Of a stretch of 64,000 nt of DNA, positions 33,005 to 52,909 are shown piece by piece. The stretch's first letter is position 1; every line of letters starts with the position of its first letter. Made by a program: the position numbers and the translations under genes. Below the pieces are notes generated by a model. It searched no databases. It was not told the DNA's origin and was given only the letters and a program-made list of their open reading frames with translations. The stretch is from Bryum argenteum (lineage: Eukaryota; Streptophyta; Bryopsida; Bryales; Bryaceae): the NCBI GenBank assembly GCA_037043015.1, contig CM073321.1, forward strand, positions 8,204,001-8,268,000, in the 5' to 3' direction.

Positions 33005-33110
33005 CAGGGTTGTCTTATTAGACACAATTTTCGGAATGTCTGTCTGATTTGTCGTATTGGACATGTCTGTTAGACGTCCGGTCGACGAAAATGTCGACCG
33101 TACCAAAAAT
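33005..33110 (+). repeat. Left terminal inverted repeat and subterminal region of the giant hAT
   Basis: The 21-bp TIR at 33005-33025 is followed by TGTCTGTCTGA and further TGTCT copies up to 33085; the same motifs in complementary form precede the right end. Confidence 0.9.
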
Positions 33111-33214
33111 TACATAGTAAAAAACTTGCTGAGATTTACCTTAAGGTAAAAAGCTATTTTCCTACGTGGCGTAGGGTTGATAATGACGTGGAAAATCAAA
33201 ATACACGCTACGAT

Positions 33215-33550
33215 GGGCGACATCGCGGGTGGGCGACCTCGCTAGGCGGCCCGACGATCGCACGGGGCAAACGTCGGCCGCTGCTACGATGGCCGATCGC
33301 CGGCCGCCGCGAGAAGGGCGGCGGCGTCGATATGGCGGCCGGCGGTCGCCCCAGCAACCGCTAGTAGGCGACCGCCGGTCCCGATCTTGGCGACCGACGA
33401 TCGCCCGGCGTCGTCGGTCGCTTATAGCGATCGGGCGGTCGCCCTAGCAACGCTATTAGGCGACACGGCCCGGTCGATCTTAGCGACCGACGATCGCCCG
33501 GCGATCGTCGATCGCTTTTAGCTATCGGGTCGCCGCGCAGGGGTAGCGCC
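33215..33550. repeat. GC-rich array 1, next to the left terminus
   Basis: Short repeats of the type GGCGACCGACGATCGCCC run from 110 to 545 bp inside the left end. The following 33560-33909 stretch is AT-rich with no gene. Confidence 0.85.
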
Positions 33551-33909
33551 CATGTGGCGATGTGTGTGGTGACCAGCACTATGGTTGACTATGAAACAAG
33601 AAAAATAAATTCATATTGGTACAAAATGAGCTTCAAAGCATTTTTATGAATACCTTTTTATCGGAAACAAGGTCAATGGTGCATTTCATAGTACAAATTT
33701 GCCCATGTCTATAATCATAGTATTCATATATATGATGTAACTATTACATATACCAAACTATATATATTAGACTCCCGAAACATACTAGGATACCAAAGTA
33801 TTGTAAGCTAATAGTTGCCCTACTTGCAGTACATTGTAGTATTGTACCAAGTACTAACAATGAACTTCATGCTTCCAATCCAAAATAACAAAATTCTAAT
33901 AACCCGTCT

Positions 33910-34440
33910 TTAGGTATCCCTCAATGTATACGTATCGTCGCTTGATACTTCATCTGCGTTTGGATCGGTTTCACCTAGAGAGTCATCAGTGCTTTGGTCG
34001 CCATCCTCGTCTTCATCTTCTGTCTCATTGCGTACTTCACACTCAACCTCACTCGCCAAATTGCGCAATTCCGTGTCCGTAGTTGTTTTCTTGTTCACTG
34101 TAACGAGGCGCATTAAGGGCCGTGAAGCATTAGTGATCCCATTTGCGTTCAATGGTAGATGGCGCATTGTACGTGTATTCGGATTATTGGATGAAGCAAT
34201 CCCAGCATGGACTTCTTCATGTACACGTGCTCCTTTCCGACATCGTCGATCGTGTGCCTTGCTCAAACGCTTCCGGCCTCGTGTAATACGATTGCGAGGT
34301 TGTGTAGATGGCCCGACGTCTCGTGCCACTGCCAATGCCCGGTTGCATGTTGGACTTCTTGGTTCTATCTTGACCTCCATCTTCGGCAATACCATACGAG
34401 TTGTATGGGCCCCTTTAGGTTGGGTAACCCTTGGGAACAA
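33910..34440 (-). CDS. C-terminal extension of the hAT transposase frame, after an in-frame TAA
   Basis: This 176-codon frame is contiguous and in phase with the transposase tail, separated only by TAA at 34443-34441 (AAA TAA TTG). It begins LFPRVTQPKG, is basic in the middle (RGRKRLSKAHDRRCRKG) and ends in an acidic stretch before TAG. Either the transposase truly ends at the TAA and this is former coding sequence, or the stop is a recent lesion (CAA to TAA). Confidence 0.4.
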   Translation of the reverse strand: MFPRVTQPKGAHTTRMVLPKMEVKIEPRSPTCNRALAVARDVGPSTQPRNRITRGRKRLSKAHDRRCRKGARVHEEVHAGIASSNNPNTRTMRHLPLNANGITNASRPLMRLVTVNKKTTTDTELRNLASEVECEVRNETEDEDEDGDQSTDDSLGETDPNADEVSSDDTYTLRDT

Positions 34441-37067
34441 TTATTTTAGAAGTACATCGGAGTCATCTCCGTTAAGAGTTGAATTCCTTGATCGAATGGT
34501 TGAAACTCTAGGTGACCCCACTTCCATGCAACCTGAATTGGATACATCGTCAGGTTCCACTTTAATTTGGTCCATTTGAACTCCTGTCGTGGTAACCGTG
34601 CCCTTCACACTCTCAAGTTTATCGTCGTTGTTAGAGTGTGGGCTTCCTTTTAGTGGACCAATGTTCTCTTCATCCATCCGGTTTACCAAGTCTTGTTTCG
34701 CTAGGCAGGTACTCTCTTGGAGTTGTAAATTTGCCACTCCTTCTCCTTCTGTGTCGCTGGCAAATACCGCAAACTGGCGAGGCAGTTGTGGAACATCCTG
34801 GTCGTCATCGAACTCAAACGGGTCCTTGACATGAATAGTCATGTTTCCTTCGTTGTCGTTCCAATTGTCTAGGTCGTCGTGTTCGCTACCGTCATTGACA
34901 TAATTGTCGTCATCCGCCTCCGGGTTATCCATGAATACACCATCATCCCATTCATTGTCGGGTACATAGTCTTCTTCGTCAGAGTCCTCTTCTTCTAAGT
35001 AATTTTCGTACCACGTTCTCGGCGATTTGGTACGTTTCTGGCGCTCGAGTTTGGCGTTCGCATAGATGTACACAAGGTCCTCTGCTTTGGAAGTTGACAA
35101 CCGATTCCTCACTTTGTTGTGCACGAAAGAGTACATGCTCCAATTCCTCTCACATGATGAAGCTGAACATGTCAATGCCAAAATCCTCTTCGCAATTTTT
35201 GGCAAGGCATTCCCCCGACTTGATGCCACCATTGATGTGGTAACAAGTCACAGTGAGCTGGATCAGGGGCCTCTGAATTGGTGTCAAATGGACCCGTCCT
35301 CTCCTCATATTGTATGAGTTCCCGCACCACTTCCTCATAGACCACTCCCATTGGGGCGCTAAGCTTCCTTATGACCCGGTTTAAAGCTCTTTTTGCTTCT
35401 CTATTGTTTTGAATTGCTCCCATATTTGTCAAATAAGGGTTCAACAAAGCTGCTGCATAGTGGAGGTCTGTGAGCATCATCTCCCATCGTTTTTGAAATG
35501 CATCCTCGTATTTTGTAGCAATGTCGGGGGATAGTTCGAATGGAGGTTCACGCAAAGAGAACACGTGTTCCTTAAGGTCCGACATGATGACATACGCCCT
35601 GGGCATGGCTGGTACTTCCCCGTCAAACTCCCGAAGAGCTAGGAGTTCTGGTTCAACTACTTTCACAAACTTCGTACAATTCTCCCAGAACTCATCGATC
35701 CTAATGCTATTCCGCACATTCCTTGCCTTTGTCTGTAAGTGGTGACTGTTTTGCGTGTTGAACAATGTTTGGACAAACACATGCCACTCCGCATCGATCA
35801 CCATGTTGTTCAGAGGTTGTTGTAGCTTTAACAACCGCTCTATCATCAAGTAGTTTGTTGCAAATCGAGTCTGAGGTGGTACCTTGAGCTGCAGCTTCCG
35901 CGAGTACTTCCTGAATAGAGCAAGGGGGACGTGCGACCCCTTAATAAATGTGCACACTCTCTTGGCTTGCTCCACCAAATGCTTAACCCAAGCCTCTTTC
36001 CCCCAATCTTCCAGAAGGAGGTCTAGAATATGTGCCGCACAACCTTGTCCATACAAGTGAGGATAGTCTATCTGCAACTTTTTCACAGCACCTAACATGG
36101 AGCTTGCATTGTCGGTGCATATCTGCACGATGTTTTGTGGTCCAACCTCCTCTATGTACTTCGCCATTTCATTTGCCACATAAGCGATGTCCTTTTTCTT
36201 CCCTGTAGTATCCACTGATCCCAAAAACACCTCTCCCACAGGGCAAACGAGCATCATGTTAATGAGTGGTCTACTTGTGACATCCGACCACCCATCTGAG
36301 CATATTGTTCCTCCGTACTTCTCCATAGAAAGTTTTGTTCGATCCTCTACTGACCTTTGCACAGTTGCCTTCTTCGCATCGAGCATCGTAGTCCTAATAG
36401 CATGATACGAGGGTGGTTGATATCCACCAATACCGGCCTTTGCTGTCTCTTGAACGGCACTTATGAATGCTGGATGTCGTACGACATTGAATGCAATGTT
36501 TGCCTCATAGAAAAATGAAGCCCACTTTGCATCCAAATTTTGCCTAATGGCAAGATCAAAACTATCCTCCATACTCCTTTGCCCATGTCGCCGTCCACTA
36601 GAGAGTGTAGAGATCCTTTGTCCATTCTTTGCCATGACTCCCCTTGTTAGAGGATGGCACTGATTAGACCTTAGGTTAGGGGATGGCACTTGTACAGAAT
36701 TGATGCGAGGGGTATCTATGTTCTCTATAGTTTCCCTTGCCGCATATGGTATGCCAACATCCACTCGTGAGTCAGGAACAACATCCGCATAAGAAATGTT
36801 GTTCTTTGGAACTATCCCTCCGCAGTCACGGAATAGCTCGAGAACTCCACGGGGCAACCTCGTACACCGGGGTAATGGGGAATTGTGAGGATATCCGAAA
36901 TGAGCAAATGCTCGTTGCCTTACAAAGACTGTGCTTTTCCCACAGAATAAGCACACGCGAGTATTTGGCTTGTCGTTCCGTTCTGTGGATACTCGTAGCC
37001 ACTCGTCCCATTTGCGAGTGTCTCTTCTATTATCTGGTACCCCGTTGGATTGGGAAGAATGCTCCAT
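34441..37067 (-). CDS. hAT-superfamily transposase (BED, DUF659-like, dimerisation), one frameshift
   Basis: The start is ATG 37067, 170 bp downstream of a TATA box. Residues 37-67 form a BED-type zinc finger (C39, C42, H56 and a later Cys in PRCTRLP). The catalytic core shows TICSDGWSDV (first Asp), IVQICTDNASS (second Asp), GCAAHILDLLLEDW (the hAT CxxH motif) and a long helical insertion. The dimerisation segment reads CERNWSMYSFVHNKVRNRL followed by an acidic tail (EEEDSDEEDYVPDNEWDDG). The frame changes by one base in a run of five G near 35211-35215, between WWHQVGG and NALPKIAKRIL; one extra G would restore it. That is either a recent inactivating deletion or a homopolymer error. Everything else up to the TAA at 34443 is open, so the copy is young. 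It is presumably the mobilising enzyme of the 19.9-kb element. Confidence 0.85.
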
Positions 37068-37236
37068 GTTCCGGAACCGCACCTCCGCCGCTGCAATGAA
37101 ACTGGTGACGACAACACGCACTACAAGGGCTCAAGTTACTCTTTGCACATATAGACCGAGCAGGGGGCTTCTCATGGGGAGACCCAAGACAACGGGCCAA
37201 GCGCAAAGGAAAGTGGCTTCGAGCCCGTGAACGACT

Positions 37237-37248
37237 CCTTATATATTC
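37237..37248 (-). promoter_or_regulatory. TATA box of the hAT transposase gene
   Basis: GGAATATATAAGG on the minus strand lies between GC-rich array 2 and the transposase ATG, about 170 bp upstream of the start. Confidence 0.6.
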
Positions 37249-37274
37249 CATACTTCTGTAAGTCGGGGGCGAAT

Positions 37275-37412
37275 GCGCATAGAAGGCGACCGGCGGTGCG
37301 GCTAGGTCGCCACAGCCAGATCGGCGGTCGCCCTAACAACAACGCTGTCGCCCCATATGAACCGCTGGTCGCCCTAGCCCTGACCCAGTTGAACCGCCGG
37401 TCGCCATAGCGA
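37275..37412. repeat. GC-rich array 2, upstream of the transposase
   Basis: Units such as GGCGACCGGCGGTGC and AACCGCCGGTCGCC are repeated just 5' of the transposase TATA box. The stretch 37413-37949 beyond it is AT-rich with no gene. Confidence 0.8.
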
Positions 37413-37949
37413 TGACAGATTTTTCCGACGAAGAGCACTTTACTCTCCAAGTCAATATCCATGGTCCACGCAGTACAGCTATTATTAACTAGAATCCCGG
37501 AGACCATGTGGCTCAAAAATGTTTGATTCGCAATAATGCTTTTCTTTGTAAAAGAAAAAAATTAAATAAAAATAAAGGGAACATGCGAAGGCAAGAGAGA
37601 GAACAATAAGGACTCATATTAGAAACTAGAGTTTTAACTTCTCTTGCTCCAAATCCAAAAAATAAAGGGATGAATATTGCTCAATCCACGTTTCCTAAAT
37701 AATTAAGAATGATAAAAATTGCTATGTATCAATGACGGTACCTCGGACATTGAAGGTTTTTCCCTTATGCTTATACCACATGCAATAGTGAGATTTCATT
37801 CACCAAGAATATTTAAATTGAAGAAAATCAAAAACTTCATATTCACATTCAACGTTTTTGCATACAAAATGGCAATTGCACTTAGTGTTTGATATTGAGT
37901 ACACTACTTTTCTACAACTGCTAAAAAAACGTGATTAACTAACTACCAG

Positions 37950-38654
37950 TCATTCTTCGCTTGGGCCCCCTTCATTGTAAAGTTGGCTTGGCCCCCCTTC
38001 TGTACAAACTTGGCTTGGCCCCCCTTCATCAAAATGTGTTCCACCTTCCTCCATCGTTTGGTTCGGCTCCCCTTCATCCACTTCTCGCCTTTCGGTCCCT
38101 TCTTCTTCCGAATCTGACCAAACTATGTCCTCATCAGGGACTCCTCCTTTGTAACCTCTAGGCGTTGTAAGCCCTTCTCGTGGGTTGGCCGCTGGATAAG
38201 GAGCTCGCGGAATATGCGGTTCTGTTGGCTTAATTGTTTGAGGGGATTTGTTTAACGTCCTCCAATCCACCTCCCTCTGCAAAATTATCTCCGCGTACAC
38301 CATTTGTGCTATGTTGTACGAAACCTCGTTGCTCACCACATGCACACCGGCGTAGAGGAACTTCCACACTTCAATGCATCGTTGCACAAATTCATCGTGA
38401 TGGCAATAGTGCAAATTTGCGCAATTCAGGCGGCGATGAAACTCGTGACGATAGTGTGGAAACAAATGGCCGATGTGGCACCAAGCAATGTACCACTTGC
38501 AAGTCTTAAGGGTCCACGGTTCCTCTACTTGCGCCCACCCCGGAAAAGCATGTTGCGTGGGATCTATGAGAATCTTGTGAAATCTCCTTTGCTTCTTTCC
38601 TTTCCTCTTGCGGTCCTTGTCTCTCGCTATCTTCCGCTCCTGGCTAGGCGTCAT
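37950..38654 (-). CDS. Cargo gene W1: short member of an unknown Cys/His domain family
   Basis: ATG at 38654, TGA at 37950; 234 residues, no lesion. A very basic N terminus (RDKDRKRKGKKQRR) precedes the shared family domain: FPGWAQVEEPWTLKTCKWYI, AWCHIGHLFPHYRHEFHRRL, NCANLHYCHHDEFVQRCIEV, then NEVSYNIAQMVYAEIILQREVDW. The tail has an Arg/Gly segment and three near-repeats of EGGPSQ. Conserved Cys and His (WCH, RH-x2-H, C-x-H-x-EF-x2-RC) across all four paralogues could bind a metal, but I cannot name a known domain. It is shorter than W2-W4, lacking their coiled-coil C terminus. GC-rich array 3 and a TATA-like site lie upstream. Confidence 0.65.
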   Translation of the reverse strand: MTPSQERKIARDKDRKRKGKKQRRFHKILIDPTQHAFPGWAQVEEPWTLKTCKWYIAWCHIGHLFPHYRHEFHRRLNCANLHYCHHDEFVQRCIEVWKFLYAGVHVVSNEVSYNIAQMVYAEIILQREVDWRTLNKSPQTIKPTEPHIPRAPYPAANPREGLTTPRGYKGGVPDEDIVWSDSEEEGTERREVDEGEPNQTMEEGGTHFDEGGPSQVCTEGGPSQLYNEGGPSEE

Positions 38655-38894
38655 GGTCACCCAAATGCTAACCAAGGAAGAAATTTTTAAACTAACTCAA
38701 AACAAAGATATATCTATTCCGTGGACTAACACAGAATTTGGAAACTCGAAAATCGGGCAGCACGTATGTGTAAAATGCACACGTGTGGCACGTGTGTGCC
38801 AATCAATCACCGCATGCTCTAGCGCTCGAACAAGCAGGCGGCAACCAGAGGTCGACACGAGACAATGCGCAAGGCCCGACACGTGGAGGTGAAA

Positions 38895-39195
38895 AATGGC
38901 GACTGCCGGTGTCCGCGCGCGTATATGTAACCCTGGTCCTAGGGCGACCGCCGATCTAGCCGAAGAAGCGGCGTCGGTCGCTAGGGCGACCGCCGATCCA
39001 CTGTGGGTGACCTTCGGTCGAGGGGCGCGACCTCCAAATGGGAGGGCGCGACGTATGTCTGGGGCGCGACCTGATCGCGCGACCGCCGATCAGCGGACGA
39101 GACGGGCGAACGTCGGTTCTTTGGGGCGACCGCCGATCCACCAAGTGGCGAACGTGAGTCATCTGGGCGACCGCCGGTCCAGGCTCATGGGCGGG
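38895..39195. repeat. GC-rich array 3, upstream of W1
   Basis: Units GGGCGACCGCCGATCCA and GGGCGCGACCT are repeated 5' of W1. A TATA-like GGTTACATATACGC on the minus strand lies at 38919-38932. Confidence 0.8.
38919..38932 (-). promoter_or_regulatory. TATA-like site of W1
   Basis: ACATATAC on the minus strand sits at the W1 side of array 3, about 265 bp before the ATG. Confidence 0.4.
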
Positions 39196-39199
39196 GACT

Positions 39200-40850
39200 A
39201 ACCTTCCTCCCAGCGTCTTTGTCGAATTATCAAAGCGAAGAATGAATTTATATAATGGCTTTTGGTGGCAAGTATTTGGAACCATCAAAACTAAAAACAA
39301 AAAAAGAAAAAAAAAAAAAAAAAGATAAATGGGGCAATAATGTGATTTTAATACTTGGACTTCCTAATCATGACCCTATGAAAATGATCGAATCATAAAA
39401 AAACCATAGGGAAATCGCATCCATATGTCATAATTTAGGTGCACCCACCACAACTTCGAATGATAAGGGAAAAGAGAATGAAAGCGTAGAGGAGGTGATA
39501 CGAACACTTGAATTAGGTAATAAGGGCCTCATAAATGTAATGGAAGTATTCATAAAACCATAGGAGAATGCGAACTATGTGGTTGAATTTATATGGGGAT
39601 ATTTGAATTGCGGGGTTTGAAGCACGGGGGCATATGTAAATATATAAGCAAAAAGGGAGTGGAAGGGGTGTTGATAACTTTCCTAGGTGATTCATATTGT
39701 GTAAAAAATATGGTATAAATCTTAGGGGCACAGGACGAACGGAAGTATTTTTCCCGAATTTCTAAAAATTAAATAGTTATGTGAAAGTAGGCGGTGTGCG
39801 CACATGCATACGAAAACAAAGTGGGGAATGTAATTTGAACATTTGGACTACACTAAATAGGTACATAAGTGTTAGATTTTTATAAGATTTGAAAATGCTA
39901 CAAGTTTTTACTTTTGGGATAAAAATTTTACCAAGAGTATCGATTCCAATACTATGTAAGGATCCCCATCTTGACCATTGTAGAGGGTACAAATATTGAC
40001 TAATAGTAAAAACTTATAGCCTATTTATATAAACTAGTGTATCTAATACTAATCTACCTATTTAGTGTAGGTAATATGGATCATATAAAAAGGATGGAAC
40101 CATCAAAAATATTATAGGACAACCTGTACTATTTTTCCCAAATTAATCTAGAATTTGGAAGTAAGTAGAGCTTTAAATAATAGATAAAAAATAGTCAAAT
40201 GGAGAGAAAAAATATTTTAAAAAGAATTGGACTATGTAATAACTACCTTATGAACATGATGGAGCTATAAAAAAAATCGTTGGAGTAAAGGATCTATAGG
40301 GTGGATTTTGGTTGCAAGCACTTAGAAACACCAAAACTTCAAAAGATAAGAAAAAATAGATAAAGGGGGTAAGAGGACAATTTAAATCCTTAGACTACCT
40401 AATGATGACCCTATGTAAATGATGGTGTTATTTAGAAAATCGTGGGGATATGTCACCTATAGGTCATCATTTACTTGTAAGTCATTTGAATGAGTAGAAT
40501 ATTGAATGATGTACGGAAAATAGATTTGTGGAAAGAGATAACGATTTTAAAACTTGTGTTGACTAAAAAAGACCTTATAAAAATTATGGAAGAACAAAAT
40601 TTCCCGTAAAAGAAACGTATCTACATGTTATGATATACTTTGACTTTGTAGGATGCTAAGTAATAGAGGAAGTTATACTAAAGGGGGAAGGAGGTGGTTT
40701 TATTATTTTCTCTAACCGTATTAAATATATTAAATCATGAAAGAAGCCACATGGAACTTGGATTTACATGGAAGGAAATACTTGGTGTTAATTTTATTCA
40801 ACCCTGGCATGGTATAGGATACTTGGTGTTAACTTCATTCAAAACCTCCA
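39200..40850. other. AT-rich stretch with two diverged copies of a 190-bp segment, no gene
   Basis: Segments at about 39230-39430 and 40300-40490 share ggttgcaag/ggtggcaag, a poly-purine run, then gactacctaatgatgaccct-like sequence. Between arrays 3 and 4 no ORF with features is seen; this may be the place of a lost cargo gene. Confidence 0.5.
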
Positions 40851-40854
40851 AATC

Positions 40855-41333
40855 GCGCGACCGCCAATACAGCGGATGGACGAACATCGGTTGTTAGGGC
40901 GACCGCTGATCCAGTTGATGGGCGAACGACGCTGACAGGGCGACCGGCGGTCTACGTGATGGGCAAGCACCCAAGGAGAAAGTGTCTGCGAGCCTCCGCG
41001 CACCCCCTCCTGATGGGGCGACCGCCGATCCAGCCGATGGGCGAACGTCGGTCGCTTGGGCGAACGTCGGTCGCTAGGGCGAACGTCGGTCGCTAGGGCG
41101 ACCGCTGATCCAGTCGATGGGCGAACGACGCTGACAGGGCGACCAGCGGTCTACGTGATGGGCAAGCACCCAAGGAGAAAGTGTCCGCGAGCCTCCGCGC
41201 ACCCCTCTTGACGGGGCGACCGCCGATACAGCGGATGGGCGAACGTCGGTCGCTAGGGCGACTGCCGATCCAGCCGATGAGCGAACGACGCTGAGAGGGC
41301 GACCGGCGGTCTACGTGATGGGCGCGAATATCT
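40855..41333. repeat. GC-rich array 4 with a 199-bp tandem duplication, no adjacent gene
   Basis: The block starting gggcgaccgctgatcc at 40897 recurs at 41096, and a shorter related copy starts at 41256. Each contains acgtgatgggcaagcaccca or its remnant. It is the only internal array without a gene directly downstream on either strand; 41334-42010 is AT-rich and empty. Confidence 0.8.
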
Positions 41334-42010
41334 GCTTCCCCCCCTTTTGCTACAAATCTTTTTCTGCGTATTTGAAATCATGTACGAATCATTGCCTTTC
41401 GAGGTTTTGGGGGGTTTGTAAATATATTCATTGACTCTAAATACTTGCAACTAAATCCCACCATATATTTATACGTAACTTCAACAACTTAGTTACAATT
41501 CCAAATTTTTACAAATTATTTATCATTACTTCATCGTGGATTAATACTAATCAAAGCTTTCCAAAATTCAATATCATTATATATACATATGGAATGGTAT
41601 AGACGACATACTTTTCTAAAAGACCACTGTCCAAAGTATCCACCAACCTACCAACATACAAACCTACCAACTTAAATAATTACCAACCTACATACCATTC
41701 TACGAACCTTTTTTTAGATATTTCCAAATCATGCATTTAAAATAAAAAATAAAAAAATAAAAAGAATAAACAAGATGATTAAAATAACACCGTGCGCATA
41801 TATACAAATAATAAACATAACATCGTTCAACGGGTATCTTACTAGTAAAAACATATCATATAATCAAAAAGATACATTGTATAACATCCAGCCTAGCACT
41901 TATCTCCCAACTTTCAGTTCACAAATAAAATAAAGTAAATGGATATAACCAACACACCAACGTCTTTCTAAAATTTGATTCCGCTTACTCTAATCTTCTT
42001 CCATTGTACT

Positions 42011-43605
42011 TTAGATTTTTTTTAGATGGTACCAGCTCCGACATTTCTCCTTTGTCTTATTTGCAATACATAGATCTTCGATCCTTGCATTTAAGAACCT
42101 CTCCTCTTCTGCAAGCACAAGTAGCTTTTTGACCAACTCCTCAGTTGTTTCATTGCGCTGTGAACTTTGACCCTCTTCTGCAATATCCACGGTTCCATCT
42201 ATTCTATTGAGGACTAACTTTTCCTTGTTCCCCTTCAATCTTATTGATGCTAGGTTCACCCTTTCGATCTCAGCTCTCAAGGCATCGCATGCCGAAATGA
42301 GTTCCTTTAGCTCCTTCTCAAAATGACCTTGGTCCTTCGCTCCTTCAACTATAAAATCCTTCTCGCGACGCCAATCATTGACCACAAACCATTCGTCGAC
42401 GTGCTTGTATCTCCTTCGCACATCCTCGAAATATTTCATCTGCTTTATGAGCTCTTTCTCATAATCGACCTGATTCGATGCAACCAGAGCTGGGAGAACA
42501 TTCGTCGCCTCCTCTTGGATCTTCATTTTTGCATCCTTGATTACCTCTATGTCATGTTGGAGTTCAACACACTTTGCCCGTTCGTATGACAAAGCATGAA
42601 ACAAATAATCATAATCCTCATAAGCCTTCTTCAACAACTTCATCCACGAATCATCGTTTTCATTCGGGCGTTTCGCTTTGAAGACTACTTGAACTTCCTT
42701 CTCCAGCTCTACTTCTTCATTTCCTTCTCTTTACGGGTACATTCAATCGTTTCCATTGGATATTCTAGAGTCCCATCCTCTACGCTAACATTTGTTTGAG
42801 GAGAGGCGCTCATAACGGGCCGAACTATAACTTCGGGTGGACCCAAAGTACAAGCACCAAACATTGCTTCAACCTCCATGTATTCAATGACATCCGCTTC
42901 TCTTTCTGTTCGTAGGTCCTCGATGTGCTTCACAGGTGCATCAATCACATCCAAATCTTGCACGCTTGTTTCACCCACATGAAAGTGTTCAACGCCACCA
43001 ATAGAACCTTCTACAAGAGGAGTATGATGCTCCCTCTCCTTAACCTCTTCTTCATCAGAATTAGGATTTACCCAAACATACACATCATCAGCATCCCCAT
43101 CTTTCCGATGCCTTGCTGCCGTAAGTCCTTCTCGTGGGTTTTCTGTCAATGGGGCTCTTGGAATGTCTTGCTTGGTTGGAAGGAAGAATTGAGGCGATTT
43201 TTTTATTGAGCTCCAATCCACCACTTTCTCCAATATTACCTCTGCATACACCATTTGAGCAATATGATACGAAACCTCGTTCTTGGTGACATTCTTGCCT
43301 TTATAAAGGAACCTCCACACTTCAATACATCGTTGCACAAATTCGTCATGCTTACAATAGTGCAGATTTGCAGCATTTAATTTCAAGTGCGTCTCATGTC
43401 GAAAGTGTGGAAACAACTTGGCGATGTGGCACCAAAGCGATGTAATTCTTCACTCAAGTCGACTCCACACACCCTCTTCGGTCTCCCACCCCGGAAAAGC
43501 GCGTTGAGTAGCATCTTGGAGAATACGGTGATTCCTCTTCTGTGTTTTTCCTCTCTTCTTGCGTCGCTCCCCGAGTACTATTTTACGTTCCGCAATTGTA
43601 GTCAT
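42011..43605 (-). pseudogene. Cargo gene W2: family member with coiled-coil C terminus, frameshifted
   Basis: ATG at 43605 begins MTTIAERKIVLGERRKKRGK, aligning with W1 and W4. The family domain follows (FPGWETEEG, WCHIAKLFPHFRHETHLKL, NAANLHYCKHDEFVQRCIEV, NEVSYHIAQMVYAEVILEKVVDW). Just before WCHI the frame has TGA at 43452-43450; the short segment around it reads correctly (KNYIA) one frame over, so two compensating indels are present. A further frameshift near 42713 separates the acidic middle from a C-terminal coiled coil of about 230 residues that ends at 42011. The original protein would be about 530 residues. Upstream are array 5 and a TATA-like TTAAATAC. Confidence 0.6.
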
Positions 43606-43786
43606 TGTTACCTCCGATCACGGAAATGCCGCTATGATGTGATGTTAGATACAAAACACCAAAAATAGTGCAGTCCACGTTGGCCTCCAATCGAGCAAGC
43701 AAGTGGCAACTTTGAGTCGACACCAGACAATGCGCAACACCACGGCACGTGGACTGAAAAGTGACGACTACGGCCAATTACGATTG

Positions 43787-43794
43787 TATTTAAC
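43787..43794 (-). promoter_or_regulatory. TATA-like site of W2
   Basis: TTAAATAC on the minus strand lies between array 5 and the W2 ATG, about 185 bp upstream. Confidence 0.35.
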
Positions 43795-43802
43795 CTCTTG
43801 TG

Positions 43803-43995
43803 GCAGGGCGACCGGCGGTGTCACGGCGGTATCGTTAGGGCGACCGCCGGTCCAGTGTTTCTTGCAAGACTCGCTCCAGGGCGACCGCCGGTCCAGCTGC
43901 AGCAGACCTTCGAGGCGACCGCCGGTGCAGCTTCAGAAGAGTATCGATCCAGCCTCAGCGGAGCGCTTCGGGGCGACCGGCACTCTGTAGGGCGA
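43803..43995. repeat. GC-rich array 5, upstream of W2
   Basis: Several GGGCGACCGCCGGTCCAG-type units are interleaved with unique spacers. Confidence 0.8.
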
Positions 43996-45300: not shown

Positions 45301-45307
45301 AGGTGAA

Positions 45308-45545
45308 ATAGGGCGACCGCCAATTCAGCTCATGGGCGAACGTCGGTCGCTAGGGCGATCGGCGGTCCAGCTCATGGGCGAACGTCGGTCGCTGGGGCGA
45401 TCGGCGGTCCAGCCAATGAGCGAACGTCGGTCACAAGGCGACCGCCGGTATAGCTTATGGGCAAACGTCGGTCGCTCATGGGCGAACGTCGGTCGCTGGG
45501 GCGACCGGCGGTGCAGATTTTGTAGACCGCCGGTCGCCTTATCAC
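45308..45545. repeat. GC-rich array 6, upstream of W3
   Basis: Alternating GGGCGAACGTCGGTCGCT and GGGCGATCGGCGGTCCAG units end about 135 bp before the W3 ATG. No clear TATA box follows here. Confidence 0.85.
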
Positions 45546-45680
45546 TGTGCTTAAGAACGCGACGGGCAGTCCATTTTCACACTTTGCGAGTACCTCCTTT
45601 TCGCGCATTGACTAGTATCGACTTCAGAGTTGCTGCTTGCTTGCTCGTAGAGGGACTTTGCGTTTCTACGAATTTTTCTT

Positions 45681-47006
45681 ATGGAGGCACTACCCGTTGT
45701 AGCGGGCACATCCATGGTGCGCCATGACCGAGGTCGGATTGCGAAGAAGCGCAGAGACATCTTGAAGAATCCAAAGATAGTAGCATTTAGAGGATGGGAG
45801 GAAGAGACGGGGCCGTGGTCTTTTGCCATATGTGAGAAATATGTGGAGTGGTGCCACATCAACAAGCTCTTTCCTCTACATCGGCACAATATTCATTGGC
45901 ACAAGAATGAAGCTAACCTCCGAGAGTGCCATCATTTCGAATTCAAAGCGAGATGCATATATGCTTGGCATATGATATACGGTAACAACCATAATTTTAA
46001 ATATGAGGTTCCCTACTTTTTGGCACAAATGGCATATGCGGAAATGATTCTTGGGAAGGAGGTGCATTGGTGGACGCATCCACGTTTGCCTATACAAGAG
46101 AAGACCGAACCAATAGAGGTTGGAGAGACATCAAAGACTATTGAAGGAGATGGAATTGGAACTATACCTATGAGTCCTAAGGCCGACGCGGAATTTTACA
46201 CAGCAGGGTCTTCTTCCGAATCCTCGGAGGATGAACACACACACGAATACGAGCTCTGTGAACCAATTGGTCTTCCAATAAATTGGACTGAAGGAATTTC
46301 CTTTGAGGTAAATCCACTCCGAAAAGTGGGTGGAAGATTATCCAAAGTCATGGATACTTTGATCATTTTGCACAATTTCAGTATAAGAAAATGCATGGAA
46401 TTGGAGTTAGTACTGCAGAATAGAAAGGAATTGGAAGCCCTCAAAGAAAGAGCCCTTTCTGCACCATACGATGTACAAGAAGAATGTCGGGAGGTTTTGG
46501 AAAAAGCTCTAGACTGCATAGCTGACATAGAGACCATGCTTGTGCTACGAAAAGAGGCTCGTGAGAAGTTTTTCGAGAAGAGAAATTCAAACAGCCTTTC
46601 CATAAAAGACTACGTAGAGTTCTGGACAGCAAAACATACTTACCTGGAAGGGGTCCTAGCTGGGAGGAGGGATCGGTTGACGGATATTGAAGAATCTATT
46701 GCTCTAGAGGTAGATAAAGAGATGCTACGCATTCGGGATTTGGCATTAGCGGGTAAGTATGGCAAGACTCCAGAGGAAGTTGACAAATTAAAGAGGCTGG
46801 TGAAATGGAGTGAAGACCAGAATGTAAAACTCGCAAAGCAACTACGTGTAGCTGAGGAGAATGCTCGATTCGAGGACGCATGGGCAGAGTGGGCTCATCG
46901 TAAAAGTAACGCAAAAGATGACATCAACATAAACGCAATCGACGTTGATTTGGAACCGCAACGATCACTTTTTTCAAAGGGCAAGGAAAAAGTTGAAGAT
47001 TCTTAA
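45681..47006 (+). CDS. Cargo gene W3: intact family member with coiled-coil C terminus
   Basis: A single open frame from ATG 45681 to TAA 47006, 441 residues. An alternative ATG 11 codons in (MVRHDRGRIAKKRRD) aligns better with the paralogue starts. The family domain covers about residues 28-130: AFRGWEEETGPWSF, EKYVEWCHINKLFPLHRHNI, NEANLRECHHFEFKARCIYA, YEVPYFLAQMAYAEMILGKEVHW. An acidic Ser-rich linker follows (SSSESSEDEHTHEYE), then from about residue 220 a long helical region rich in Glu, Lys and Leu that is likely a coiled coil, ending in a basic KGKEKVEDS tail. Function unknown; domain plus coiled coil suggests a scaffold or DNA/chromatin-binding oligomer. It is the only cargo paralogue on the plus strand. 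Confidence 0.75.
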   Translation: MEALPVVAGTSMVRHDRGRIAKKRRDILKNPKIVAFRGWEEETGPWSFAICEKYVEWCHINKLFPLHRHNIHWHKNEANLRECHHFEFKARCIYAWHMIYGNNHNFKYEVPYFLAQMAYAEMILGKEVHWWTHPRLPIQEKTEPIEVGETSKTIEGDGIGTIPMSPKADAEFYTAGSSSESSEDEHTHEYELCEPIGLPINWTEGISFEVNPLRKVGGRLSKVMDTLIILHNFSIRKCMELELVLQNRKELEALKERALSAPYDVQEECREVLEKALDCIADIETMLVLRKEAREKFFEKRNSNSLSIKDYVEFWTAKHTYLEGVLAGRRDRLTDIEESIALEVDKEMLRIRDLALAGKYGKTPEEVDKLKRLVKWSEDQNVKLAKQLRVAEENARFEDAWAEWAHRKSNAKDDININAIDVDLEPQRSLFSKGKEKVEDS

Positions 47007-47821
47007 CGTAGAGGCGATGGACTTACACCCCCAACATTCACCAAACGATATTTGATTTACGTTAATTAGGTGTAGGGAAAGTGTACGTAATTTCTTCTAT
47101 GTACTTTTTCTCATACACTTTATATATGGAAGTTTGTTTTTACCTTTCATCATGCGTAAGTACGTGTTTGTGCATTGGTACAAGGGGTTGGGCGGGTTAT
47201 ATGGACTATGAAGATGTAAGATACAATAAAAGCTGACAAAGTACAATTGATAGACCACAAGCAAAGGAGCGAACCAAATACATACCATTGATTTAGTCGA
47301 TGCAAAAAGTAGTACAATAGGAAATGAGATACATTGTTGCAAAAAGCTGCCACTCGATAATACTATAATGAAATATAGTCCTATATAGCTAAAACCATAC
47401 GCTATCTTTGGAGTGTATGGATTCACAATATCGTAATTATCATTCACTAGGCTGAGGGTTGGAGCATTCTCCAACAAGAAGTTTACGCTTTGCACGAGTT
47501 CGATTGAATGGACCATCTGCATTTAAGATCAGATCTAAGACTCTAGAGTCTTTCAAGTCCTGCAAAGTCCTTCTTGTGAGGGGACTATGTACATCCAAAG
47601 AAATAGTCTAGAGCTTGAGACTGTATATCGTGGCCCCCAAGTAGACTCAAAGATATTGACACTCTTCCAAATCTTCCATGGAGGCACGACCTTCACCGTC
47701 GGTTACTCTCTTCCCATATTGATTCCATCGATGTCCCATTGGATGGGGCCCCCACTTGAATATATTAGAGCTCACATCAAAATAGCCTCCAAGGCATTGG
47801 AAGAAGAACATCCGATTACCC
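47007..47821. other. No supported gene
   Basis: The AT-rich 3' flank between the convergent ends of W3 and W4. Short ORFs are present but none shows a domain. Confidence 0.5.
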
Positions 47822-49780
47822 TCATCTTTGTGGACCTTGTCCGCAAGTATTGGTGCAACTCTTAGAATCTCGTTTGGGTCGAGTCTCCCAATTCAATTGG
47901 GAGCTAGGAGTACTCTTCTCGAGATCATGTTCACGTCTCTCGCCAACTCCAAATAAGGTCTTTACCCCAGAATCGAACCTCGTCGCAGTCTCGGCATTGT
48001 GTTCCCAAGAAGGCGGCATATAAGTTCTTAGATTGAACATCTCGTAGAACCGCTCGTGAAAAGGCGCTTTGCATATAGCACAACGACTTTGAGTCAAACA
48101 ATGAACTAAAAGACACTGCTGCGGATGATACATATGGACACAAGAGCCTAAAGCCCATCCACCCTCGGGTCCAAATGGATTTAGGCATATGGGACACGTA
48201 GAGTGATCCAATACAAATCATGGAGGGTTGGGCCACAATAATGTCCTGGATGCTACATCAACATGTGCCGACATGTGGTGTTTGAAATTCCACCCGGCCT
48301 TGCTCCAATCTACAACCTCTGTAGAAGTGTCATCTTGCATCTTGATGTCCATCATAGGAAGATTATCAAACAATGTATCCACACTCGGCCACGAGGTCAT
48401 ACCGAACGTTCGCCGACCAGCTCCACTAGTAAAATTCTTATCGATCTTCTCTAGCTCCGCTGCAACTTGTCTCCCTCTATCCACCGAAAGTATACATGCC
48501 ACCTTCCAATGGTAGTAAGTGGCAGACAACTGCTCCAAACGAGCTTGCAGTTGTTGCTTTTCCTTTAGTAAGGAGTTGTATCCATCAGACGACATGAAAG
48601 GGGGATTACGAATAGGGGGGAACAGCGGTAAAGATAAAGAATCTTGAGAATCACATCGTACATCTTCTTCTCGTTCGAGGCCCGACATATTAACAACACA
48701 TGGCTGAGCTTTCACAGGACGGCGCAATGTAGGGCGTTGGGGTGACATTTCTCCAAATGCCAAGTCCTCTGTAAGGTTGAAGACAACTCTATCAACATCC
48801 GCCATGTCTGATTTCTCTACATCTCCACGAATGTTACGTGCGTGAGATAGTTCTTGCATCTTCTCGCGCATGCGTGCATATTCCACGGAAAGCCGGTCCC
48901 CTTCTTTCACCTTCTCCTCATACATTGCTCGTGTTTTTTCGAGATCCGCTTGCAATCTTGCTATGACGTCGTCTTTACTCTTCAGAAGAGCTTTGAGATC
49001 GGAAGATGTGTCAAGTTCTTCCAATGGTAAGATGCAAGTACCATGGGGCTCTACTACGAGTGGATGATTACTTGCTATTGCAGGGCGAGAGCCACCTATT
49101 TCAGGAACGCGGCCAGGTAAATTACGACGATGATCCGCATCAATCACAACGCTGGCGGGAGGAAGAGGTTGTTGTACTTGACGCACCGCCTTACGAGGCC
49201 GCGAACCATCCGAATCATCGTCCTCTTCTGATGTAGCACTATGATAGGCAGCCTCTTCCATAGCCTTGGTAATAGACCTCGTCACTGCCATGCCACCATT
49301 AGGAGCGTCAGGGAATCTTAGAATGCCTGTCGGAATGTCACTTGTTGAAGGTCGTGTTACATGCTTCCCCTCTTTGACAGTTGTCCAATCCACTCGTTTA
49401 CCAAGAGCAACCTCGGCGTATACTCCACGAGCAAGAAACAATGGAACCTCGTTGCGCTCCACACATGGCATGCCATACAGGACTTGGTAAACCTCAATGC
49501 ATCGTTGCTTGAAGTTTGGGCATTCGCAAAACTTAAGATTTGCCTTGTTGGTGCGCCGATGAAAATGGTGACGAGACAGAGGGAATTTCTTGTCAATGTG
49601 ACACCATTCAATAAACGATTCGCAAGTGGCCATCGTCCACATATCTGGTTCATCTTCCCAACCTCTCAAGGCAAGCTTATTTGGATTTTGAAGCACGTGT
49701 AATCTTTTCCGTTGTGGAGCGCCCTTCCTCTTCCTCTTCTTGTCGTTCTCTTCCTTCCTAAGTTGCCTGAGAGTAGCCAT
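47822..49780 (-). CDS. Cargo gene W4: family domain, coiled coil and RING finger; one in-frame TGA
   Basis: ATG 49780 (MATLRQLRKEENDKKRKRKG) opens a 520-codon frame to TGA 48220-48218, and the same frame continues without another stop to 47822. The family domain is near residues 30-140 (ALRGWEDEPDMWTMATCESFI, EWCHIDKKFPLSRHHFHR, ANLKFCECPNFKQRC, NEVPLFLARGVYAEVALGKRVDW, with CE-x-PN in place of C-x-H). A Ser/acidic linker, a coiled coil (LKALLKSKDDVIARLQADLE onwards) and a second helical part follow. After the TGA comes a RING-type finger: CPICLNPF, CVHMYHPQQC, CAICKAPF. RING fingers commonly act as E3 ubiquitin ligases; that role is inferred. The TGA is explained by CGA or TGG mutating. Array 7 and a TATA box lie upstream. 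Confidence 0.7.
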
Positions 49781-49906
49781 GGATGAAATAGCCAAAAATG
49801 GCAAATAGTTATTACCTACCCGGAACGAGCATGCAACCAATTTAATGGATGTAAGACAATGCGCTAGGCCAGTAAACCCAAATAAGAAGTTCAGATACGA
49901 TGGGGG

Positions 49907-49915
49907 AATATATAC
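49907..49915 (-). promoter_or_regulatory. TATA box of W4
   Basis: GCGTATATATTCC on the minus strand lies directly at the W4-proximal edge of array 7, about 130 bp before the ATG. Confidence 0.6.
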
Positions 49916-49917
49916 GC

Positions 49918-50307
49918 CGGGGCGACCAGAAATTGAAGGCGACCGGCGGTCCAGATAGAGGTATGACGTTGCGTGGCGACCGCCGGTCCAGTGAGGGCGC
50001 GATCACAGTGACACCGGGCGCGACGCAGAGGTAGGGCGACCGCCAATCACGGCTAATCGCGACAATGGGAGGCGGCGACCGCCCGATGCACTGCTCGCGG
50101 CAATGGGGCGTAGGGCGACCGCCCGGTTCACCGTTCGCGACAATGGGCGTAGGGCGACCGCGGTCAATGTTCAGCGGCAATGAGGACGCAGGGCGACCGC
50201 CGGTGCAGCTGTCGCGACAACGGGACGTAGGGCGACCGCCGGTCAAATTGTCGTGACAATGGGACTGGGCAACCGCCGGTGGGCGACTGTAGGGCGACCG
50301 CCGGTCT
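49918..50307. repeat. GC-rich array 7, shared divergent promoter region of W4 and the kinase gene
   Basis: More than ten GGGCGACCGCCGGTCCAG-like units with a recurring cgacaatggg spacer fill the gap between two divergent genes. A TATA box sits at each edge (49907-49915 minus; 50315-50322 plus). Confidence 0.85.
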
Positions 50308-50314
50308 CCAAGGA

Positions 50315-50322
50315 TATATAAA
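50315..50322 (+). promoter_or_regulatory. TATA box of the kinase gene
   Basis: TATATAAA begins 8 bp after array 7 and lies 215 bp upstream of the ATG at 50530. A short upstream ORF in another frame starts at 50493. Confidence 0.65.
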
Positions 50323-50529
50323 CCCCAACGCGGGTTTGATATTACTTTCCCAAACCGCTACCGAACTCTTCTCCGCCCGTGTCCTTGCTCGTCTTAATGA
50401 TGCGCCTTTGCGGGTTGTCCGAGGAGTTTGTGGAGTTTGGTGCACATTGATAGCAGGGGGAGATTTTTGCGGTTTTTTCAAGAAGTTCAACGATGAGTAA
50501 ATCCAAAAGCATCGAAAGGGACAACGAGC

Positions 50530-52041
50530 ATGGGATCCGGATGCCCCGAAACATTTGCACCGGACCTTGGTATGCAACAACCTAGTGGAAGTGGAGGCCA
50601 TAAGAGGAAGAGGAGACACCCAAAAGAAGTAAAACCCGGATTCCCAACACCGATTATACTAGGTTTTGCGGAAAAAGCATGCTTGGATTGGTATGAGGAA
50701 ACGGAGGCTCAATTCCTAGAGCACAACTACCTCAGGAATGTTAGCACGGGCAAAGAGAGACTAAAGAAGAAATTGGAGGCAGTAATTTTGAAGGCCATGG
50801 CGGAATTGGATGAATACCAAGATGTGGATTATCATTCGCAGTACCAGTTGTGGATGGAAAATACAGTTGAACAATGCATCTTCAATGTAAAGGAGTTGTG
50901 GAAGAAGCGATCTGGACAGAGGCGTCTAACACAAGAGGAGGACCAGTTTAAACGCAAGATGGATTGGTGGCAACACACAATCCAAAAGCTTAGCAAGAAT
51001 AAAACCCGAGGGAAGTCATGGGAAAAAACCGCTTTGCGCGCCACATTTGAACGAGACACAGGGTCGGGGGTGGTGTGGATTCCTCAAGACGCTACGATAG
51101 AAGCTCTATCAGCCCGCAATATGGAGGGAGGCCATGGACTGGTACGGAAGGTGAAGATACTTGGAGTAGACCACGTTCCAGAAAATATCGAGTTTGCAGC
51201 AAAGCTTTCCAAGAATATGAATATTCAGAAGAGGAGGATAGAGACTGCAGCAGAAGCTCTTGTATGTCCTTTGAATCATCCAGGAATTATCAAGTTTTGG
51301 GCGTTGCATACAAGGACATTCGAAGCTTACTCATATTGGTGGAATGGAGGATCACTACACGAGATGTTGAAGTTGGATGAGAAGGTCGGCGACAAACATC
51401 TTCACTGATCGAAAGTGAAGGAAGTTCCAAGTCTCACTCAAGAGGAGGCTTTCAGAATTAGCCTTTTCCGTCAGCACAGGATGAAGTTAGCTTGGGGTTT
51501 AGTGTACATCATGAATCTCGTGCATAAGACAGGAGTACTTCACAACGACCTATCCCCCTCGAACATACTATTGCATTTCCCAACTTTCGGAGGAACCAAG
51601 ATTTGTATTGGAGTGTGTGACTGGGGGATGGCATCTCGTATAGTAGAACAACAGCCTTCACGTTACGGATACCAGACGACGCCGAAAAAAGAAGAAGATA
51701 TGGCACGTCGATGGTGGGTGGCGCCCGAGATGTTCTATACTTATGGACCTGAAAGTTCTGATACAAATTTGAACGTCCAGGAACTTCGACATCCAACCAC
51801 AGTAGCATCAGATTCGTATGCGGTTGGCAAGCTCATCCAGCTGATTGGTGTGCATAACGAATTCGACGAAGAATTATTACCGAATTCGACGGTGCGAGAT
51901 TCATTCCTAACGAAAGTGTTTTCACTGACCAGGCATGAATTAAAAGAGAGAATGACCTGTGGGGAGGTGGTGAACCGCTTGATGGCAAAACCATATCATA
52001 TGCTTCCACCGGAGCTTGTATTTAGAGAGGACAGTTATTAG
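50530..52041 (+). CDS. Cargo gene: protein-kinase-like protein with one in-frame TGA
   Basis: ATG 50530 to TAG 52041 is one frame interrupted only by TGA 51406-51408 (CAC TGA TCG; CGA to TGA by a CpG change would explain it). The N-terminal 190 residues are charged and helical with no recognised domain. The kinase domain follows: a degenerate glycine loop near GGHGLVRKVKI, the likely ATP lysine in EFAAKLSKN, HPGIIKFW, WWNGGSL, the catalytic loop VLHNDLSPSNILL (HND for HRD, Asp and Asn kept), CDWGMAS (DWG for DFG) and WWVAPEMF (APE). Catalytic residues are thus largely present. The activation segment is long (KKEEDMARR). Two-part translation is unlikely to give an active enzyme, so this copy is probably recently inactivated. 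Substrate is unknown. Confidence 0.7.
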
Positions 52042-52449
52042 TTTATAATATCAGTATATCTTCTTGCAATTCATAGACTCCTATGGATGACCATCTCACG
52101 TCATTGAGTGCTCATTTAGCCAGGTAATTCACAATTTATACTTGCAATATATACAATCTACTTTTTGACATATTGTTCCAAATCTAATAGATTTTTGCAA
52201 CTCTTATAATTATGTTCCCTTTTTACACTAGTCACATATGTATGTCACCACATTTTTTGTTACATGAGTTTCAAACCTCATGGTTGATGTTAGCCTTTTC
52301 TTCAGGGGTTTGTGGATTGTTGTAATTTGTTTCATCTTGAATTCTTAATGCTTCATCTACGTTTAAAAACGTGAACGGAAGAATTTTGGATAATGTTGGA
52401 TAAAAAAATGACTTATTCTACTCGGGGGAAGCCTCCAATGCAAGGCCAC
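52042..52449. other. No gene; 3' flank of the kinase gene
   Basis: AT-rich sequence between the kinase stop codon and array 8; nothing recognised. Confidence 0.5.
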
Positions 52450-52735
52450 CCTAGGCGACCACCGGTCCAGGGGCGAAAATAGGCGACCGCCGGTCCAGCG
52501 AGACCACCGGTCCAGCGAGACCGCCGGTCCAGCGAGACCGCCGGTCGCCCTGGGCGATCGTCGGTCGCTCATGGACGATCGTCGGTCGACCCTGGGCAAT
52601 CGTCGGTCGACCTGGGCGATCGTCGGTCGCTAAGGCGACCGCCGGTCCAGAGAAGGCAACCGCCGGTCCGGCCAAGGCGACCGCCGATCTAGATGACGCG
52701 ACCGCCGGTCCAGTCCTACGTGGCGCGGTCGCGAA
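52450..52735. repeat. GC-rich array 8, next to the right terminus
   Basis: Tight GCGAGACCGCCGGTCCA and GGGCGATCGTCGGTCGC units end 174 bp inside the right end of the giant hAT. Array 1 holds the mirror position at the left end, where the first units start about 210 bp in. Confidence 0.85.
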
Positions 52736-52819
52736 CCGTATTGCTGAGCTGTACAGGCCACGTGGCAGCCACGTAGGATGCAACGTGGACAGGGTAAATC
52801 CAGGGTAAAAAAAAGATTC

Positions 52820-52909
52820 TGTAGATTCTATTAGACATTCTGAGGCTCAATGTCTGTCTGACATGTCGTGTCTGTTTGACGTCCGTCAGTGTCTAGCAAG
52901 ACAACCCTG
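52820..52909 (-). repeat. Right terminal inverted repeat and subterminal region of the giant hAT
   Basis: The TIR occupies 52889-52909 (ending acaaccctg), preceded by TGTCTGTCTGACATG and related motifs. The target duplication ctagaaag follows at 52910-52917. Confidence 0.9.

Follow-up and report, generated by a model that had tools for sequence, protein, structure and literature searches.

The interval 33005-52909 (forward strand; 19,905 bp) of the window, the 64,000-nucleotide stretch of Bryum argenteum DNA analysed here, is one of multiple copies of a giant hAT transposon, which carries six genes as a fixed set and has moved as one 20-kb unit many times. From its sequence organization, we think it somewhat probable that the element is self-addressed and regulatory, with one or more of its own proteins binding operators, switching on or de-silencing the element and helping it to move.

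The element is bounded by 21-bp terminal inverted repeats, CAGGGTTGTCTTATTAGACAC on the left (33005-33025, plus strand) and GTGTCTAGCAAGACAACCCTG on the right (52889-52909, minus strand), which differ at 2 of 21 positions, and the 8-bp target duplication CTAGAAAG stands on both flanks (32997-33004 and 52910-52917). A sequence-only reading had described these ends and flanks and proposed a single giant hAT between them; the former were re-found in the window sequence, and the latter is confirmed by the length class of facing ends, the target duplications and the empty sites. In the 258.8-Mb assembly, 35-nt patterns of the left and right ends gave 226 and 78 matches, respectively, at up to 3 mismatches, while the same patterns read backwards gave 0 in both cases. 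Among 85 facing pairs lying less than 100 kb apart, drawn from the ends listed, at least 22 are spaced at 17.6-20.0 kb, within the 10-25 kb that the sequence-only reading had proposed to search. Since the backwards patterns found nothing and the facing pairs cluster at this spacing, the end matches are not due to chance. The target duplication is exact in 15 of 21 long pairs tested, matches at 7 of 8 bp in two and is lacking in four, and the duplicated targets differ in sequence between copies. An empty site, sought by the earlier reading in related strains, has its counterpart in eight uninterrupted paralogous sites in the same genome that span the insertion point of the window copy (two of them aligned).

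Ten other fully read copies align over 83-98% of the window copy at 93.5-95.7% mean identity. Gene order and orientation are unchanged wherever a gene was located in the 11 copies, which answers the question of whether the gene content is constant: the copies vary by internal deletions and broken frames, and the set is otherwise the same. A divergent locus, at ~79-84% DNA identity in the longer matches, retains paralogues c1 and c3, the RING part of c4, the kinase gene and the right end in the same order. There are also two gene-less derivatives, of 2.29 and 5.74 kb, both with exact target duplications.

The gene set comprises a hAT transposase, four paralogues of a Cys/His-containing family and a protein kinase. 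All had been predicted by the sequence-only reading and all are present, although the window copy is partly decayed and its genes cannot all be called intact: transposase and c2 are each split between reading frames, and longer open frames for the decayed genes are found in other copies. The transposase gene (33910-37067, minus strand) occupies several frames in the window copy, its left end being placed from longer frames elsewhere. It encodes a DUF659 domain, a hAT dimerization domain and an acidic C-terminal extension, with Pfam matches to DUF659 (2e-40) and Dimer_Tnp_hAT (1e-05) in the window, and to DUF659 (2e-36) and, above the cut-off, PF05699 (4e-06) in a longer frame from copy L034. 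An N-terminal BED zinc finger is common in hAT transposases; the L034 protein has Cys/His residues in its N-terminus and no BED match at E <=0.1 in Pfam. Paralogue c1 (37950-38654, minus strand; 234 aa) and c3 (45681-47006, plus strand; 441 aa) have open frames in the window copy, while c2 (42011-43605, minus strand) is broken there and reaches 530 aa in copies L027 and L028. The fourth, c4 (47822-49780, minus strand, with a tail that extends further left in other copies), carries a C-terminal RING-like finger (E 6e-05 in the window and 1e-05 in L021, both just under the Pfam cut-off), preceded in the window copy by a stop codon at 48218-48220 that is missing from several other copies. The kinase gene (50530-52041, plus strand) matches Pkinase at 1e-09 and encodes 516 aa in L018, with a stop at 51406-51408 in the window copy. 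The paralogues have a basic N-terminus and conserved Cys/His residues. Among 19 paralogue sequences scanned, none matched a Pfam family at a usable E-value (best 0.12), nor was there a PDB match, and DNA binding is for this reason read from the basic and Cys/His residues only. A candidate seventh gene in the AT-rich tract between c1 and c2 was rejected, there being no convincing ORF; in the six copies listed, shared frames were short or crossed repeats.

Measured against the divergent locus, dN/dS is 0.36 for the RING part, 0.51 for c4 and 0.55 for the kinase, and selection looks weak on c1 (0.84) and c3 (0.79). Variants shared between the 11 copies were not significantly less amino-acid-changing than singletons in any gene (in-frame Fisher p 0.17-0.95), and the in-frame dN/dS of shared variants (0.32-0.81) overlaps that of wrong-frame controls (0.54-1.56). 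Shared stops numbered nine in frame and 49 in the two other frames combined, as sums in which the c4 and RING stretches overlap. Because the gene set is constant and part of it appears to be under constraint, the six genes are probably the element's own. The earlier description of a giant hAT element is supported, but 'cargo' is probably the wrong word for these genes. The further suggestion that it moves a regulatory gene set appears more likely than the sequence-only reading could know, because palindrome arrays precede each gene.

These arrays, absent from the earlier reading, consist of a palindrome of approximately GGGCGACCG-N-CGGTCGCCC, which occurs in eight clusters of the window copy: upstream of every gene at a distance of up to ~600 bp, at the two element ends and in one non-coding tract. 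Array 1 is left subterminal (33337-33495; 4 motifs) and array 8 right subterminal (52457-52710; 12 motifs). Array 2 (37288-37402; 3 motifs) lies 226-330 bp 5' of the transposase start, array 3 (38946-39179; 6 motifs) 297-520 bp 5' of c1, array 5 (43810-43927; 4 motifs) 210-317 bp 5' of c2 and array 6 (45338-45535; 9 motifs) 151-338 bp 5' of c3, while array 7 (49941-50306; 5 motifs) sits between the divergent c4 and kinase genes. Array 4 (40942-41311; 8 motifs) adjoins no gene and falls in an AT-rich non-coding tract; the tract 39575-41287 is retained at 95% identity in the 5.7-kb gene-less derivative L059. Both gene-less derivatives keep arrays, with 13 motifs in the shorter and 27 in the longer.

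The element contains 51 motifs against 1 in the window's other 44.1 kb, with an expectation of 0.2 from 10 Markov simulations, and the number per element varies from 41 to 56. None of the 546 motifs in the 11 copies falls in protein-matching sequence, though such sequence makes up 47.6% of the length; 272 lie upstream of a located start at no more than 700 bp, and a further 175 within 700 bp of an element end. The spacing between a located start and its nearest motif is steady for each gene across these copies, at 151-157 bp for c3, 164-200 bp for c4, 190-201 bp for the kinase, 188-226 bp for the transposase, 210-314 bp for c2 and 294-377 bp for c1. The divergent locus has motifs at its right end, in the interval from c4 to kinase, and 5' of both c1 and c3. 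Genome-wide, a 19-nt motif form has 139 places in total; of the 100 listed, 91 have a family gene or a paired end no more than 20 kb away, compared with a mean of 7 under random placement, and for the other nine no listed gene or paired end is close by. Only 19 places in the genome hold the full 17-nt palindrome, GGCGACCGNCGGTCGCC, and the putative operator is therefore usually imperfect. Information content is roughly symmetric around the palindrome, also outside the searched core. The palindromes are CpG-rich, number ~50 per element and are family-specific. We favor, with some reserve, the view that a protein of the element binds them. In arrays 1, 4, 6, 7 and 8 a tandem structure is reported by Tandem Repeats Finder, and the arrays, partly tandem repeats, could have grown by slippage. 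A second motif family with a similar layout is present in the same window; for a second element on the window's left side, no ends were found among the 25 longest of 354 inverted repeats.

We propose that at least one element-encoded DNA-binding protein, for which the four paralogues and the transposase N-terminus are candidates, binds the palindromes as dimers. Protein bound at the promoters would switch on or de-silence all element genes together, and protein bound at the ends would mark the DNA for transposase. The RING protein and the kinase might target host factors of silencing or replication, or modulate other element proteins, and the gene-less derivatives, with ends and arrays kept, would be moved in trans. 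We put forward tentatively the idea that this system serves to counter silencing, rather than to dock the transposase or simply to activate the genes. Equally tentative is its fullest form, a hAT lineage with an independent anti-silencing system, in which a new palindrome-binding family (the four paralogues), a RING ubiquitin ligase and a kinase, with operators at every promoter and both ends, might allow a 20-kb element to escape silencing while leaving host genes untouched.

The palindromes could alternatively be subterminal sites of the hAT transposase, comparable to AAACGG of Ac, that have spread to the spacers, the genes being transposase-regulated or unregulated and the paralogues having some unrelated role. 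Such docking sites would explain the arrays at both ends and their retention in both gene-less derivatives, whose duplications are exact; Cys/His residues in the N-terminus of the transposase are of a type that we assign to a finger (without a Pfam match), and the Ac transposase is described as binding repeated subterminal hexamers in PMC3260210. Docking alone, however, needs neither arrays whose distance 5' of the start codons is steady (150-380 bp) nor four paralogous genes in constant order across copies, and we consider this explanation rather unlikely. It is improbable that the arrays are functionless selfish minisatellites, expanding in the spacers and eliminated wherever they enter coding regions. 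The tandem structure of five arrays and the differing motif numbers between elements would fit such growth, but the symmetry of the palindrome roughly continues past the searched core, array positions are steady in 11 copies and partly kept at the ~79-84% identity locus, and arrays are retained in the gene-less derivatives.

Turning to the genes, they might be passengers captured from the host, true cargo serving a host phenotype. Kinase and RING domains, both found in the element's genes, are common among host domains. We nevertheless judge host capture quite improbable, given that the set stays constant from copy to copy and is largely preserved in the divergent locus, and that four genes are mutually paralogous and lack known relatives in Pfam and PDB. 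The chance that the ends belong to separate elements and were paired by accident around host DNA is negligible: matches to the end patterns are scattered through the genome (226 for the left end, 171 for the right) and four of 21 pairs have no duplication, but the exact 8-bp duplications in 15 of 21 pairs, the colinear interiors of 11 copies and the eight paralogous empty sites rule it out.

The self-addressed reading can be set beside known systems. With the hAT superfamily, characterized by an 8-bp target site duplication and terminal inverted repeats of 5-27 bp (PMC12506042), the element shares the 8-bp duplication, short inverted ends (21 bp here) and the hAT dimerization domain of its transposase. 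As in Ac/Ds, there is a repeated subterminal motif, and non-autonomous derivatives have common ends. Ac carries one gene. Maize Ac is given as 4.6 kb in PMC3260210, whereas the element here is ~20 kb, has six genes and bears its motif ahead of each gene as well; the same paper describes the capture of genes as rare among hAT transposons. In the Starships, the tyrosine recombinase captain (DUF3435) is the first gene (PMC12506042); here a Pfam scan of ten ORFs from the window and five longer frames finds no DUF3435. ToxTA (formerly ToxhAT) of fungal wheat pathogens is a 14-kb TIR element with genes that was once reported with a hAT-like transposase, but it has the 2-bp TA duplication of Tc1-mariner elements and 74-bp TIRs, in contrast to the 8-bp duplications seen here. 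VANDAL21 of Arabidopsis is Mutator-like, and VANDAL elements with VANC are characterized by a Mutator-type transposase, by a motif to which an element protein binds and by loss of methylation. In two sources (PMC5735166, PMC10398659), VANDAL21 (Hi), the element of the VANC anti-silencing proteins, has a short element-specific motif in dense non-coding arrays arising by tandem repetition, located in introns and upstream regions of its genes. Dense element-specific arrays in non-coding regions are common to both, but Pfam finds hAT and not Mutator domains here, the VANC21 motif is described there as 9 nt in one orientation where ours is a palindrome of ~17-19 bp, and our paralogues, without a Pfam family, are set apart by Pfam profiles. 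By analogy, we infer that the element works like VANC/VANDAL, but in the hAT superfamily. Enlargement of an ordinary DNA-transposon superfamily to 16-20 kb with several ORFs has a parallel in the En/Spm families of Chondrus crispus, which are CACTA and not hAT (16-20 kb, 4-5 ORFs; Kojima et al. 2013, cited from PMC6431247). The whole word 'hAT' is absent from the main text of that review and from that of a 2026 review of gene capture in plants (PMC13317346), and the open-access literature searched yielded no report of a giant multi-gene hAT.

Collectively, our results show that many copies of a hAT element can arise by movement of a 20-kb unit, where the usual picture is of one gene in a few kb, and that the additional genes are constant like core genes rather than variable like cargo. 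The palindrome arrays make the question of cargo testable by asking which protein binds them, and whether binding leads to de-silencing or to transposase recruitment. The second motif family in the window is a hint that such a strategy may be widespread in this genome. If the anti-silencing interpretation is true, the VANC strategy of Arabidopsis would have arisen a second time, in an unrelated superfamily and with different proteins.

The element moves as a unit. Its ends (33005-33025 and 52889-52909 of the window) are 21-bp inverted repeats that differ at two positions, and CTAGAAAG lies on the left and right flanks, which confirms the ends and the 8-bp duplication claimed by the sequence-only reading. 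In the G000 assembly (258.8 Mb, 25 contigs), where the window spans C1:8204001-8268000, a 35-nt pattern of the left end has 226 matches at up to three mismatches and the right end has 78, or 171 with a looser pattern; reversed control patterns of both ends have none. Pairing 138 left and 113 right ends, among the matches listed, gave at least 85 facing pairs less than 100 kb apart, including at least 22 at 17.6-20.0 kb, the window copy counted in, and at least 13 at 5.5-7.0 kb; pairs much wider than 20 kb may be false or nested. Besides the window copy, 10 long copies were read whole and 10 more at their ends only. The reading had also proposed a search for facing ends with 8-bp duplications, and in 21 of the 22 long copies (window copy included, C1:10238168 left out) the duplication is exact in 15, agrees at seven of eight bases in two and at four or fewer in four. 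Duplication, ends and transposase domain together assign the element to hAT, in agreement with the earlier assignment.

An uninterrupted site was also found. When both flanks were joined with one copy of the duplication (221 bases), eight places in the genome crossed the junction over at least 170 bases at 87-94% identity, and three weaker matches (70-80%) likewise cross it. Base-by-base alignment of two of the eight shows no interruption: a single TTAGAAAG stands where the window has CTAGAAAG. The reading had suggested looking for an empty site in related strains; these places, which are paralogous repeats and not alleles, show the site without the element. About 45 bp left of the insertion ends a stretch of about 4.15 kb between long imperfect inverted repeats (28808-32959; repeats of about 340 bp, near 80% identity), which is probably another TIR element.

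The gene set is constant among copies. The 10 other copies align to 83-98% of the window element at mean identities of 93.5-95.7% and are colinear with it, with internal deletions and few insertions. At a query coverage of at least 80% and an identity of at least 70%, the transposase and c1 are present in 8 of 11 copies each, c2, c4 and the kinase in 10, c3 in all 11 and the RING part of c4 in nine; wherever found, the orientation is -,-,-,+,-,-,+ for transposase, c1, c2, c3, c4, RING part and kinase. Coverage is zero for c1 in two copies and for the RING part in one. In C1_4554571 the DNA alignment shows c1 deleted, while the zeros for c1 in C1_446463 and for RING in C8_15163840 are read as broken frames, since in the former the c1 region still aligns and a 97% c1 fragment is present, and in the latter frames matching RING remain. 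The proposed alignment of copies for gene constancy returned the same set in 11 copies, minus deletions and broken frames. The 55 pairwise identities between copies range over 93.4-96.3%, and none of the 11 copies read is nearly identical to another; judged from these sequences, the family is an older burst.

Read from the first Met that the copies share, the longest open frames outside the window copy give proteins of 789 aa for the transposase (copy L034; the acidic tail is longer in other copies), 234 for c1, 530 for c2, 441 for c3, 593 for c4, part of whose RING tail lies past this length, and 516 for the kinase. The transposase matches DUF659 (2e-36) and hAT dimerisation (4e-06) in Pfam and the kinase gene Pkinase (1e-10), each passing the cut-off, and RING falls slightly short of it (1e-05); by eye, the kinase sequence has the kinase Lys, HND, DWG and APE motifs. 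A domain common to the c1-c4 proteins, about 130 residues long, has a basic N-terminus. Within it, C59, H60, H70, H73, C84 and C93 (numbering of the first sequence) are invariant in 19 sequences from element copies, and it has no relative in Pfam or PDB. A genome search with c1 gave at least 154 matches (150 of 1268 candidates scored); among the matches listed, at least 36 span residues 1-234 without a stop codon. Identity declines gradually from 100% to about 57%, the level at which c2-type matches set in.

One c1 match, at 65% identity (C1:15869929), is the centre of a divergent locus with c1, c3, c4 with RING, kinase and right end in the order and orientation of the main family, at about 79-84% DNA identity in longer matches and 75% in two short ones. 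Transposase, c2 and left end are absent from the 20 kb read there. This locus is partly broken, because its c4 and kinase matches each fall into several pieces. Against the main family, dN/dS is 0.84 for c1, 0.79 for c3, 0.51 for c4, 0.36 for the RING part and 0.55 for the kinase; from these values, long-term constraint is visible on RING, c4 and kinase and weak on c1 and c3. Of five paralogue pairs compared, three gave a value, 0.27 (c1-c2), 0.28 (c1-c4) and 0.30 (c1-c3), with synonymous sites near-saturated. Variants shared among the 11 copies give in-frame values of 0.32-0.81, with no significant difference from singletons, and wrong-frame controls on the same stretches give 0.54-1.56.

Palindromes are placed outside the protein-matching sequence. 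The window element holds 51 instances of the motif GACCGNCGGTC at up to one mismatch and the remaining 44.1 kb of the window one; 10 Markov simulations averaged 0.2. The majority extension of the 51 motifs is GGGCGACCG-G-CGGTCGCCC, and information declines roughly symmetrically outside the searched core. Of the eight clusters that they form, two are subterminal, one at each end; transposase, c1, c2 and c3 each have one 5' of the gene; c4 and kinase, which are divergent, have one between them; and the last (array 4) stands in an AT-rich tract that holds no gene. Across 11 copies, none of 546 motifs lies in sequence matching the six proteins (47.6% of length, excluding the transposase tail past 789 aa); 272 stand 5' of a located start at a distance of up to 700 bp, a further 175 within 700 bp of an end and the remaining 99 elsewhere. 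A 19-nt form has 139 genome matches; of the 100 listed places, 91 stand no more than 20 kb from a paired end or a listed c1/c2-type match. Random placement, repeated 50 times with an assumed size for one contig, gave 7 on average and 13 at most. The long copy at G000:C1:26669416-26689050 (ends L047 and L048), whose duplication AGGGCGAC is exact, seems to have inserted into a palindrome array of another family member.

Gene-less derivatives bear arrays. The two short copies read whole, L060 (2,291 bp) and L059 (5,735 bp), have exact duplications and 13 and 27 motifs, and neither gives a tblastn match (E 0.001) to the six genes, represented by nine translated ORFs of the window. L059 retains, at 95% identity, a stretch of 1.7 kb that surrounds array 4; the corresponding AT-rich non-coding tract of the window (39575-41287), with its orphan array, is unusually well kept. 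Such derivatives are expected if ends and arrays suffice in cis, with the rest acting in trans.

The window holds other repeats. Another CpG-rich motif resembles a palindrome (about CATCGGGCGATCCCCCGATG, with many instances only at two to three mismatches) and clusters at 4872-5303, 6831-7361, 13065-13660 and 17080-17266, immediately 5' of the ORFs at 3135-4871(-), 5335-6819(-) and 13637-14974(+) and adjoining a DUF7869 gene (15102-17042). It has 120 genome matches at up to one mismatch, often in arrays, two of which (C3:13.597/13.605 Mb) are about 8 kb apart, spaced as in the window; clusters and ORFs are possibly another large element of similar layout. An AT-rich tandem array of ATTTTTAAATATTTAAAT units, itself self-complementary, lies at 25095-25298. 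Elsewhere in the genome, the chlorophyll a/b-binding family has 90 matches, with a profile that also matches one control, Synechococcus; on these matches the host is taken to be a photosynthetic eukaryote. Its tandem clusters (C5:8.16-8.41 Mb, C5:14.73-14.76 Mb and C2:25.06-25.09 Mb), whose matches cover mostly profile positions 31-161, we take to be possibly ELIP-like arrays; ELIP arrays are linked to desiccation-tolerant plants.

Searches of an open-access library listed no paper that describes a giant hAT with several genes; given this scope, the novelty of the element is provisional. The giant-transposon review PMC6431247 lacks 'hAT' as a whole word in its main text; among the families that it cites are CACTA ones of 16-20 kb with 4-5 ORFs. 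ToxhAT, the only gene-carrying 'hAT' that turned up, has been reclassified, according to PMC12506042. PMC5735166 and PMC10398659 describe VANC of Arabidopsis VANDAL21: it binds to 9-nt motifs that stand in arrays in non-coding regions, and it induces methylation loss. PMC3260210 describes binding of the maize Ac transposase to repeated subterminal hexamers. The motif layout here combines the non-coding placement of VANDAL21 with the subterminal placement of Ac. It is reasonably probable that an element protein binds the palindromes. Binding at promoters would couple the expression of all six genes, and binding at the ends would help transposition; that the purpose of such binding is anti-silencing is a more tentative suggestion, which we hold to be possible but doubtful.
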